DNA from: Candidatus Margulisiibacteriota bacterium
Lineage (GTDB): Bacteria > Margulisbacteria > Riflemargulisbacteria > GWF2-35-9 > DYQY01
DNA length: 32,552 bases
Assembly (NCBI GenBank): GCA_028706105.1
Contig: JAQWCF010000009.1
Span: 1 to 32,552, forward strand
Direction of reading: 5' to 3'
A program made the translations under genes and the position numbers. This document shows, piece by piece, positions 6,332 to 31,757 of the stretch. How positions within the stretch are numbered: position 1 is the first letter of the stretch; each line of letters begins with the position of its first letter. The notes under the pieces are model-generated. The model did no database searches and was not told the origin of the DNA. It saw only the letters and a list, made by a program, of their open reading frames with translations.

Positions 6332-6370
6332 AGCTTTAGGCTTTTAGCTTTCAGCTTTTAGCCTTATAAT
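6332..6370 (+). promoter_or_regulatory. thrC promoter module, copy 1 of a repeated 39-base element
   Basis: Tandem-like AGCTTT(T)AG units (AGCTTTAGGCTTTTAGC...) run straight into TATAAT at 6365-6370, six bases before the thrC ATG. It matches 18942-18980 upstream of glyS at 34 of 39 positions without gaps. A usable -35 is not clear; TTTTAG sits at the right distance but fits poorly. Confidence 0.7.
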
Positions 6371-6376
6371 ACCTTT

Positions 6377-7426
6377 ATGCATTATATGGGACTTATTAAT
6401 AGATATCGTGAGTATTTGCCAGTTTCGGCTAGCACTAAGATTATTACATTAAATGAGGGGAATACTCCACTTATTCCAGCTGTTCATATTTCTTCTTTGC
6501 TTGGTAAAGGCATAAAAGTGTATTTTAAGTACGAAGGCCTTAATCCAACAGGTTCATTTAAGGACCGTGGAATGACTATGGCTATTACCAAAGCAGTTGA
6601 AAAGGGAATGAAGGCAGTTATGTGTGCTTCTACGGGCAACACTTCTGCTTCTGCTTCTGCTTATGCTGCCAGAGCTGGCATTAAGTCTGTTGTAATAATT
6701 CCCGAAGGCAAGATTGCCTTAGGTAAGTTAGCTCAAGCGATGATGCATAATGCGCTTGTTATAGAAATTGAGGGTAACTTTGACGATGCGCTTAATACAG
6801 TGAAAGAAGTTACAAGTATGTATCCAATCGAGTTGGTTAACTCTATTAATCCTTTTAGAATAGAAGGGCAAAAGACAGCCGCTTTTGAGATTATTGATGC
6901 GTTAGGTTTTGCTCCTACGTATCATTCATTACCAGTAGGAAATGCTGGTAATATTACTGCATATTGGAAGGGATATACTGAGTATAGAGATAATAAAAAG
7001 GCACGAAGTGTCCCAAAGATGATAGGGTTTCAGGCAGAGGGTTCTTGCCCTATTGTAAAGGGACATATTTTTGATAAACCAGAAACAGTAGCAACAGCTA
7101 TTCGCATTGGAAATCCAGCAAGTTGGAAACAAGCAGAAACAGCGAGAGATGAGTCTTTTGGGCTTATTGATAGCGTAACTGATGAGGAAATATTGTCAGC
7201 GTTTAAATTGTTAGCAGCAACGGAAGGCGTTTTTTGCGAACCAGCTTCTGCAGCATCTGTTGCTGGAATATTAAAAAAGAAAGAGATGTTTAAATCTGGG
7301 GACGTTATCGTTTGTACTCTGACTGGTCATGGCTTAAAAGACCCAGACAATGCAATCAAGATGTCTGAAAAAACACATAAAGTATCAAATTCACTTAGTG
7401 AAATAGTAAAATTAATAGGGGTGTGA
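6377..7426 (+). CDS. thrC: Threonine synthase
   Basis: PLP enzyme converting O-phosphohomoserine to threonine and phosphate. The 349 residues fit the short bacterial/archaeal type rather than the longer E. coli or plant forms. The N-terminus GLINRYREYLPV and LNEGNTPLIPA are typical. The PLP Schiff-base lysine is Lys62 in NPTGSFKDRGM, followed by ASTGNTSASASAYAARAG (cofactor phosphate and substrate contacts), LPVGNAGNITAYWKGY, and EPASAASVAGI near the C-terminus. It has its own promoter with TATAAT six bases upstream and is followed after one base by an Lrp-type regulator. A second ATG at 6386 is possible as a start, but the first ATG fits the -10 distance better. Confidence 0.93.
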   Translation: MHYMGLINRYREYLPVSASTKIITLNEGNTPLIPAVHISSLLGKGIKVYFKYEGLNPTGSFKDRGMTMAITKAVEKGMKAVMCASTGNTSASASAYAARAGIKSVVIIPEGKIALGKLAQAMMHNALVIEIEGNFDDALNTVKEVTSMYPIELVNSINPFRIEGQKTAAFEIIDALGFAPTYHSLPVGNAGNITAYWKGYTEYRDNKKARSVPKMIGFQAEGSCPIVKGHIFDKPETVATAIRIGNPASWKQAETARDESFGLIDSVTDEEILSAFKLLAATEGVFCEPASAASVAGILKKKEMFKSGDVIVCTLTGHGLKDPDNAIKMSEKTHKVSNSLSEIVKLIGV

Positions 7427-18941: not shown

Positions 18942-18980
18942 AGCTTTAGGCTTTTAGCTTTTAGCTTTAGGCTATATAAT
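18942..18980 (+). promoter_or_regulatory. glyS promoter module, copy 2 of the repeated 39-base element
   Basis: AGCTTTAGG and AGCTTTTAG units lead into TATAAT at 18975-18980, seven bases before the glyS ATG. It matches the thrC copy (6332-6370) at 34 of 39 positions. The similarity continues across both start codons as CTTTATGnATTAT. A glycine T-box leader is excluded here for lack of space. Confidence 0.7.
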
Positions 18981-18987
18981 AATCTTT

Positions 18988-29796: not shown

Positions 29797-30561
29797 TTGT
29801 TAACAGGCAAAGAATTATTTATTAAATACAGAGAAGCAGAGGATCCAAAACTTAAAGATCAAATTATAGAACAGCACTACAACCTTGTGATATATGTTGC
29901 ACGTAAGTTTTTGGGTAAAGGTGAGGAATTAGAGGATCTGATCCAAGTTGGGATTATTGGACTCATTAAGTCCATGGACAATTATGACCCAAGCTATAAT
30001 GCTGCTTTTGCTACTTATGCTATGCCAATGATAGTTGGTGAGATAAAACATTATTTTAGAGATCACGCTAGATTAGTGAAGCTTCCTAGAAGATTGCATG
30101 AGCTTAATGCCCAAATAAAAAAATTAGCCTTTGAGTTTCAACAAGATTATGATCGTTCGCCTACGATTGAAGAGATAGCAACAACGCTTCATGCTTCAGA
30201 GGAAGAAGTTTTGGAAGCGATGGAGGCTGGTGAGTCCAGCAGGGCGTTGAGTTTGGATTCTCCTGCTTTTGTGACAGAGAGAAGCGGAGAAGTTGTTTCA
30301 GATGCTAGATCGTCCTTGATGGATTCTTTAGGTGTTGACCATCTTGAATCGAAGATAATAGACAGAGAAACACTAAAGTTTGCTATCGCTAATATTTTAA
30401 ACAGGCGAGAGCAACGGATTATTTATATGAGATATTATGACAACCTTTCTCAGCATGAAATTGCGACATATCTTAGATTATCTCAAATGCACGTATCTAG
30501 GTTAATTAAGAATGCTATTGATAAATTATCTAGATATATTCAAAAAAATTCAGTGATATAA
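29797..30561 (+). CDS. Sigma-70 family factor of the SigB/SigF/SigG type
   Basis: Alternative RNA polymerase sigma factor, 254 residues, start TTG with AAGGGG five bases upstream and an in-frame stop at 29770. Region 2: HYNLVIYVARKFLGKGEELEDLIQVGIIGLIKSMDNYDPSYNAAFATYAMPMIVGEIKHYFRDH in outline, with the core-binding EDLIQVG and the -10 recognition part FATYAMPMIVGEI. Region 3: LPRRLHELNAQIKKL and RSPTIEEIATTL. Region 4 helix-turn-helix: RREQRIIYMRYYDNLSQHEIATYLRLSQMHVSRLI. This layout is that of the stress/sporulation group (B. subtilis SigB, SigF, SigG), usually held by an RsbW/SpoIIAB anti-sigma factor. It converges with a SpoIIE-type phosphatase gene; no anti-sigma gene is adjacent. Confidence 0.92.
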   Translation: MLTGKELFIKYREAEDPKLKDQIIEQHYNLVIYVARKFLGKGEELEDLIQVGIIGLIKSMDNYDPSYNAAFATYAMPMIVGEIKHYFRDHARLVKLPRRLHELNAQIKKLAFEFQQDYDRSPTIEEIATTLHASEEEVLEAMEAGESSRALSLDSPAFVTERSGEVVSDARSSLMDSLGVDHLESKIIDRETLKFAIANILNRREQRIIYMRYYDNLSQHEIATYLRLSQMHVSRLIKNAIDKLSRYIQKNSVI

Positions 30562-30574
30562 CACCCTTTTCCAG

Positions 30575-30779
30575 CCTCACCCCCTAAAGTTACTTCATGG
30601 TAGTAGTTATATTTTTTTATCCCCCTCTCCTGGCAGAGAGAGTGGGAATCCTTATGTATTGTTGATAAACCCTTTCTTTTAAGTAAATATAAAACTGTAC
30701 AGTAACTAAACCTCTCTGTTAGGAGAGGTAGCTACAATTTAGGTAGTTGAATAAATGAAAGAAACTTGAGCTGGTGAGG
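30575..30779. repeat. 205-base imperfect palindrome of two inverted ~66-base units, REP/MITE-like
   Basis: The gap between the converging sigma and phosphatase genes holds two copies of one unit facing each other. The unit is CCTCACC, 5 bases, AAGTT, nCTT(T)CAT, 25-26 bases, then CCTCTCCTnnCAGAGAG. Arm one is 30575-30640 (+), arm two 30779-30712 (-). Each arm also folds on itself through CTCTC/GAGAG. The spacer contains the perfect 10-base palindrome ACTGTACAGT at 30694-30703. The CCTCACC...CCTCTCC pattern recalls the intergenic palindromic repeats found in many bacteria. It could act as a bidirectional terminator. No transposase or coding capacity is seen. Confidence 0.72.
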
Positions 30780-31757
30780 TTAGCTATATTCCAGTAGCAT
30801 CATTGTAATATCGTCATCAGTGGTGGGGCTTTTGCTATATTCTTTAATGTCATCTAAGATTTTTTGAAAAAGATTCTCGCCTGAGAGCCAACTGTTGTCT
30901 TGGAGTATTTTAATTAATCTTTGAGTCCCAAATAATTCTCCGTTTTCATCTTTTGCTTCAGTTAATCCATCTGTGTATAAAAATATTTTATCGCCTTGTT
31001 CTAGGATAATATCTTTTTGTTCGAATTCTGGTGATTCAAACATTCCTAGAAAAACACCTTCAGTTTCTAGCAAGACAACAGAATTATTTTTCTTCAGAAG
31101 TATTGGGGCAGTGTGTCCTGCTTTAGAATAAGTTAATTTATTGTTGGTGACATCAAGTGTTGCACTGAAAATAGTAACAAAGTTAATGGCGCTTCCTTCT
31201 GTATACTCAAGTAAACGTTTGTTGGCTATTTCCATCATCGGCTTAAGTTGGATTTGCTGAGCAAACAAATCTTCTAATGTATTTTTGGATAGAATCATTA
31301 CAAGAGCAGACGCAACTCCATGACCAGAAACGTCTCCAATGGCAAAGTTGAGTGTTTCATCTTTTTTGTTTTTTAGAGTAATTACACCTTGTTCATTGTC
31401 CGTGGATTGTATTTTATTTTTTATGTCCTTAGCCATAATAAAAAAGTCTCCGCCTATTTTTTCTGCAGGCATGCAAAGTGCAGTAAGTTGGTATTTTTTG
31501 TATTGGATTTTATTGGTAGAGAGTAGTCCGCTTTGTATTCTTCTCGCCATATCTAAATCACGCTTGTTTTTCATTTGGTTCCTGTCAGTAGTTTTTATAA
31601 GCAGTTCTGCTTCTTGTTTACGTATTTCTGCATCATTTTTTAGTGTTTCTGTTTCTTTAATAGTGAGTAGTTTTAAATCTTTTTCTTTTTTAAGTAAAAG
31701 AAGAAGATTAGCAGTTATTATTAAGAATATGAGTATATATATAATATGAATTAACAT
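30780..31757 (-). CDS. Membrane-anchored SpoIIE/RsbU-type PP2C serine phosphatase
   Basis: 325 residues. One N-terminal membrane helix (about 4-23), a charged coiled coil (about 24-75) with the DMARRIQSGLLS linker typical of RsbU-like proteins, then a PP2C-like SpoIIE domain (about 85-324). Metal-binding aspartates are Asp104 (GGDFF), Asp142 (GDVSGHG), Asp263 (YTDGLTEA) and the DDD at 314-316 (TTDDDITMM). AGHTAPILL is also conserved. The stretch between GGDFF and GDVSGHG is longer than usual and polar. Such enzymes dephosphorylate anti-anti-sigma proteins, freeing sigma-B/F-type factors. The converging sigma factor makes that role attractive, but no RsbV or RsbW is here. No clear ribosome site precedes the ATG. 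Confidence 0.9.
   Translation of the reverse strand: MLIHIIYILIFLIITANLLLLLKKEKDLKLLTIKETETLKNDAEIRKQEAELLIKTTDRNQMKNKRDLDMARRIQSGLLSTNKIQYKKYQLTALCMPAEKIGGDFFIMAKDIKNKIQSTDNEQGVITLKNKKDETLNFAIGDVSGHGVASALVMILSKNTLEDLFAQQIQLKPMMEIANKRLLEYTEGSAINFVTIFSATLDVTNNKLTYSKAGHTAPILLKKNNSVVLLETEGVFLGMFESPEFEQKDIILEQGDKIFLYTDGLTEAKDENGELFGTQRLIKILQDNSWLSGENLFQKILDDIKEYSKSPTTDDDITMMLLEYS

Follow-up and report, generated by a model that had tools for sequence, protein, structure and literature searches.

What is the large palindrome that separates the convergent ends of two regulatory genes in a margulisbacterial genome, and how did it come to lie there? The window that we analyzed, 32,552 nucleotides long, is the entire contig C9 of a 1.93-Mb genome in 147 contigs (G000, hereafter the own genome). 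Near its right end, a palindromic element without strand assignment, made of two inverted units and a spacer, extends from 30575 to 30779. It is preceded by a gene for a sigma-70 family (SigB/F-like) sigma factor (29797–30561, plus strand) and followed by one for a SpoIIE-domain (PP2C-type) phosphatase (30780–31757, minus strand), both outside the element; the domains detected, Sigma70_r2, r3 and r4 in the former and SpoIIE (E=2.5e-46) in the latter, bear out the identities that an initial annotation had given these neighbors. As that annotation also stated, 13 bases separate the end of the sigma-factor frame (30561) from the element, and the stop codon of the phosphatase, starting at 30780, directly abuts it.

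The initial annotation described the gap as built from two inverted copies of a ~66-base unit. The two ~67-bp units are indeed present, a left one of 66 bp (30575–30640, plus strand) and a right one of 68 bp (30712–30779, minus strand), but a 71-bp spacer (30641–30711, no strand assigned), partly common to copies on contigs C60, C7 and C75, also fills the gap. The outer ends agree over seven bases, with CCTCACC at 30575–30581 (plus strand) and its complement GGTGAGG at 30773–30779 (CCTCACC on the minus strand) marking the boundaries of the element; the right-hand end is common to independent copies. AAGTT occupies unit positions 13–17 in both units, and the inner 17-base hairpin motifs, CCTCTCCTGGCAGAGAG (30624–30640, plus strand) and CCTCTCCTAACAGAGAG (30712–30728, minus strand), are identical at 15 of 17 positions, all of which had been read correctly. 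The units nevertheless belong to different classes. The left one (class 2) consists of the outer block CCTCACCCCCTAAA, a spacer arm without a stem and the inner TCCCCCTCTCC hairpin, whereas the right one (class 3) carries the outer CCTCACC, a variable stem AGCT/AGCT closing a loop of ~35 nt and the inner CCTCTCC hairpin. Because the left unit is of class 2, the right unit is the only part of the window element with an arm stem.

The predicted foldability of the element held up in that its folds beat those of dinucleotide shuffles, both as RNA (z=-4.9 for the plus and -3.3 for the minus strand) and as single-stranded DNA (z=-2.9). An Rfam search of the window found no known structured RNA.

Copies of the unit and their arms

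The window element belongs to a multi-copy family. In searches of the own genome we found dispersed copies, 72–85% identical in the stronger matches, in which similarity stops at the outer CCTCACC. Copies of the right unit on C60, C7, C75, C127, C5 and C16 are 78–85% identical and all end at 30780 ± 1, and matches on C60, C7 and C75 cover the spacer region (query positions 84–222, 106–221 and 107–221). With a covariance model trained on 13 of the units, we identified 50 places at E<0.001. For the pattern CCTCACC-N22-50-CCTCTC there are 21 matches in the own genome and none when it is read backwards, in agreement with the initial annotation's view of a dispersed CCTCACC/CCTCTCC palindromic repeat. 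Within the window, the inner 17-mers occur at only two places with up to three mismatches (mean in shuffles, 0.29), and two places were reached in 3 of 100 window shuffles, a figure that taken alone would leave some room for a chance or low-complexity inverted repeat. Against the 21 exact-pattern copies with 0 in controls, their common ends and the covariation described below, we give that explanation no credence.

The copies take the form of inverted pairs, of single units and of compact versions with one common central hairpin (C4, C42 and C7). The paired arrangement had been regarded as peculiar to this locus; the pair is there, but pairing is common across the family. Besides the left unit of the window there are five class-2 units (one each on C60, C75 and C77 and two on C4), and many copies lie 0–13 bp behind a stop codon. 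The copies are extragenic, multi-copy and often inverted-pair palindromes, as is characteristic of the REPIN type. A related unit forms 115-bp tandem arrays at the contig ends of C76 and C89. The two arrays (C76, L150 7886–8199; C89, L100 1–411) are near-identical, with the repeating unit CCTCTCTC..CTCTCTCC, and lie beside a DUF559 gene on C76 and beside mutS on C89.

In most units, a stem of 4–5 bp stands between the fixed CCTCACC and CCTCTCC blocks, and its sequence varies from copy to copy (GGCG/CGCC, AGCTA/TAGCT, GGTCG/CGACC, AGTGG/CCACT, AACG/CGTT and others). Arms were aligned by MAFFT, a fit in which structure was not used, the structure itself having been chosen after reading the same units. 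Compensatory changes are found in 5 of 5 pairs and G-T pairs in none; the covariation score was reached by 0 of 500 shuffles, and sliding the partners lowers the paired fraction to 41–55%. Self-complementary arms are also seen in other phylum genomes (longest stem 4.9, compared to 3.2 in shuffles). In class-2 units the arm stem is missing and the C-rich hairpin is longer. Since the arm contains no G-T pairs, its fold is suggested to matter in DNA rather than in RNA.

Sites with and without the element

The sites occupied by the family are polymorphic among relatives. G001, the only same-genus genome compared, has a sigma factor with 95% identity, and its gap between sigma factor and phosphatase measures ~30 bp, versus 218 bp here; the check for an empty site in a close relative that the initial annotation had called for thus came out positive. 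The G001 gap keeps a 24-bp residue, GGTGGTGGG, that could be the remnant of a lost copy. The element is likewise absent from this gap in G002, G003, G005 and G006, which belong to the same order. Two further sites differ in the same way: behind groEL on C60, a 438-bp cluster of units stands in place of the 14 bp of G001, and on C94 the 487 bp between trpG and trpD hold a DUF559 gene and its palindromes, against 22 bp in G001. As the window site is empty in most outgroups, the simplest reading is that the window element is an insertion in the G000 lineage, although with one same-genus genome the direction of change at each site is unproven.

Several neighboring features were noted at these loci. 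In G004, the same gap (L165, on G004:C25) holds a palindrome that is independent of the window element and of a different motif type, CCTCATCC-GGCAC..GTGCC-ACCTTTCTCC. G001 has a further unit (L099, G001:C31 1501–1580) on the far side of the phosphatase, ~1.7 kb from the sigma factor and near the place where the contig of the window ends; a repeat may be what broke the contig there. On C94 (L173 2582–3068), the trpG frame runs through the palindrome into DUF559, giving an open frame of 339 amino acids and a possible natural fusion.

DUF559 genes bracketed by palindromes

We first noticed a DUF559 gene beside the tandem array on C76. DUF559 is still a Pfam family of unknown function. A search placed seven members in the own genome and showed the family in 27 of 38 genomes, and when we read the flanks of these genes, inverted pairs surrounded nearly all of them. 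A structure predicted from an alignment of 24 sequences (mean pLDDT 86) matches 3hrl, the catalytic domain of I-Bth0305I (3r3p, E=1.7e-5) and, more weakly, Vsr (1cw0), and the invariant residues of the family include acidic ones, Q, H and R. The structural matches together with these invariant residues indicate that DUF559 is most likely a nuclease with a Vsr/EDxHD-type endonuclease fold. In one report, a Thermosynechococcus DUF559 gene is termed EDxHD (PMC9403480).

To quantify the bracketing, we scored the local alignment of each upstream flank with the reverse-complemented downstream flank, using displaced intervals of the same loci as controls. Across the phylum, DUF559 genes have a median flank score of 36 compared to 19 in controls (n=34 versus 64, p=4e-12), and a fresh sample of 20 phylum loci gave a median of 41.5. 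A strict pattern, in which an outer block is followed within 40 bases or fewer by an inner block, occurs on both sides at 8 of these 20 loci and on at least one side at 13. The association extends beyond the phylum. In a collection scan with a 5-sequence alignment, we obtained 79 DUF559 loci from named genomes, mostly Bacteroidota with others from Cyanobacteria, Cloacimonadota, Spirochaetota, Chloroflexota, Bipolaricaulota and Proteobacteria. Their median score is 27 against 19.5 in 226 controls (p=4e-17); 37 of the 79 exceed the 99th percentile of the controls, and about half have no significant inverted flanks by this score. Motifs such as CCTCACCCCAGCCCTCTCC..GGAGAGGG recur around DUF559 in the named loci.

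Some DUF559 genes and their palindromes form whole units. The elements on C42 and C61 lie in unrelated surroundings and match at 81% identity over 530 bp, a stretch coterminous with the outer ATCCCCC..GGGGGAT blocks, and the differences between their arms are compensatory. The single DUF559 gene of G001, in the trp cluster on G001:C17, is flanked to its left and right by CTCACCCC..CCCCTCTCC, and these blocks are those of the window element. This gene and the DUF559 gene on C2, which has class-1 units on one side only, are the nearest links to the window motif. None of the seven DUF559 loci of the own genome carries the exact CCTCACC/CCTCTCC window motif on both sides, and the direct partner of the window copy may therefore be the C2 gene, a gene that was lost or one missing from the assembly. 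Still, units and DUF559 genes keep company in the own genome: 8 of the 50 covariance-model matches fall within 1 kb of a DUF559 gene where 0.4 were expected, or 3 of 29 once loci are merged (P=0.002).

Palindromes of the CCTCACC/CCTCTCC type are present in 42 of 74 phylum genomes. Tabulated over the 74 genomes, unit and DUF559 co-occur (24 with neither, 11 with the unit alone, 7 with DUF559 alone and 32 with both; p=1.5e-5), and the association persists at family level (p=0.003), the family-level table being the one way in which relatedness was handled in these phylum-level counts. Several of the 11 unit-carrying genomes among the 35 without detected DUF559 are incomplete assemblies.

Candidate movers of the element

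These observations make it probable that the window element is a non-autonomous, REPIN-like mobile palindrome with a DUF559 endonuclease as its partner. The association of genes and palindromes makes the partnership likely, and from it a mechanism can be proposed. The plan of the element, an outer CCTCACC block, a variable self-complementary arm and an inner CCTCTCC..GGAGAGG hairpin, followed by the same inverted, would allow it to fold into a cloverleaf as single-stranded DNA. Full-length relatives encode a DUF559 protein of ~120 amino acids between two inverted units. DUF559 would recognize the folded ends and nick or cut them, and replication or repair would copy the element to new sites, for the most part immediately after stop codons. 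Short copies such as that of the window might be moved in trans or derive from full-length elements by internal deletion. We lean, with rather less assurance, towards a broader reading, in which a DUF559 endonuclease bracketed by palindromes is a widespread and so far unrecognized mobile element of several phyla that spreads itself together with swarms of non-autonomous palindromes, much as in REPIN-RAYT systems and with another class of nuclease. Counting against DUF559 as the mover, Vsr-like enzymes are not known to transpose DNA.

The mover that REPIN-like features would ordinarily suggest is a Y1 HUH transposase. Paired palindromes that are extragenic and numerous, with single units too, are REPIN-like (PMC3116915), and Y1 genes occur in 34 of the 74 phylum genomes, which would fit a classical REP/REPIN element mobilized by RAYT/TnpA-REP. 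Yet Y1_Tnp (PF01797) is absent from the own genome and from G001–G004, G006 and G007, and the seventh other genome of the class searched, G005, has a weak fragment only. At the 20 phylum Y1 loci that we read (L255–L274), the window unit flanks none. Nor do the units, when read, show the unpaired GTAG or CGTC tag beside the hairpin that marks REPs (PMC3733652); their conserved blocks are CCTCACC and CCTCTCC. Mobilization by RAYT is thus very improbable, and the REP-associated (TnpA-REP) transposase that the initial annotation brought up found no support: with Y1_Tnp missing and different palindromes at Y1 genes, we rejected a TnpA-REP/RAYT partner. The Y1 loci have palindromes of their own, GGAAACCTGCG..CGCGGTTTCC (GGAAACC type) and CCCCACA..TGTGGGG.

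A role for the host is somewhat easier to entertain, though still doubtful: the element could be a bidirectional terminator or an mRNA 3'-end structure, kept between convergent genes for that purpose. The converging neighbors and the strong fold speak for it, as do the several copies 0–13 bp behind stop codons, the class-2 hairpins elsewhere that are followed by T runs (C60, C75 and C77) and the independent palindrome in the same gap of G004. However, a terminator scan of the window element found no intrinsic-terminator-like site and so lends no support to the earlier suggestion that it could end transcription on both sides; five relatives (G001, G002, G003, G005 and G006) manage without the element at the same site; and the compensatory changes involve the arm and not the hairpin alone, in which the lack of G-T pairs points to DNA. 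The strongest rival, unlikely as we judge it, turns the relationship around: another enzyme, or replication slippage or template switching, would move the palindromes, and DUF559 would be a homing-type passenger that invades them. ISPpu9, which inserts into REPs, offers a parallel. The homing-endonuclease fold of DUF559 is in keeping with such a passenger, and so are the many palindromes without a nearby DUF559 gene and the genomes that carry the unit in its absence (11 of 35). What weighs against it is that palindromes and gene behave as one. The C94 element is missing from G001 as a whole, palindromes included; C42 and C61 have palindromes and gene in common as a block between unrelated flanks; and palindromes of different subfamilies are found, each bracketing a DUF559 gene.

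Comparison with known systems sharpens the picture of a palindrome partnered by DUF559. REPINs are likewise short extragenic palindromes, non-autonomous, often in inverted pairs and also found as single units, and their partner gene elsewhere is flanked by the same palindromes (PMC3116915, PMC3733652, PMC8266576). Here the candidate partner is DUF559, of the Vsr/EDxHD nuclease fold, and not a Y1 HUH transposase; the GTAG/CGTC tag is lacking, a covarying arm separates outer and inner blocks, and copies number in the tens, which is low. The REPs described so far bear a GTAG or CGTC tag and are associated with RAYTs, the CGTC REPs lacking a known transposase, and neither CCTCACC nor CCTCTCC appears in the text of that report (PMC3733652). 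The structural model relates DUF559 to EDxHD/Vsr-like homing endonucleases, through its match to I-Bth0305I and its weak match to Vsr, but those insert into one cognate site, often in introns or inteins, whereas DUF559 is encoded by a free-standing gene that inverted palindromes bracket and that occurs in many unrelated places. MITEs resemble the element in being small and non-autonomous, in carrying terminal inverted repeats and in having relatives with empty sites. They differ in that here the whole element is structured and not the ends alone; comparing sites with relatives, we saw no direct repeat at the ends of the window element that would represent a target-site duplication, and a non-exhaustive search met no DDE transposase relative with matching ends. 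A review of prokaryotic MITEs does not mention an endonuclease partner. In work on yeast mitochondria, mobile palindromic GC clusters are described, and endonucleases of mitochondrial introns were proposed to assist their movement (PMC4478555); these clusters are organellar and GC-rich in AT-rich DNA, and the endonuclease is not bracketed by them, which makes the likeness one of analogy only.

We know of no mover for CCTCACC/CCTCTCC-type palindromes. The papers searched contain no link between DUF559 and palindromic repeats; as subscription journals lay outside this coverage, along with most preprints, we regard the partnership as provisionally new. Linking the two makes both testable, since the link predicts a binding target for DUF559 and accounts for the origin of the palindromes. 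If true, intergenic repeats of the CCTCACC/CCTCTCC type would gain a partner enzyme, and the REPIN-type partnership of a nuclease with a short palindrome would gain a second enzyme class.

The window also holds a pair of direct repeats, 40 bp long and 88% identical (AGCTTTAGGCTTTTAGCTTT.., 6332–6371 and 18942–18981), with a start codon a few bases downstream of each (open reading frames at 6377 and 18988).
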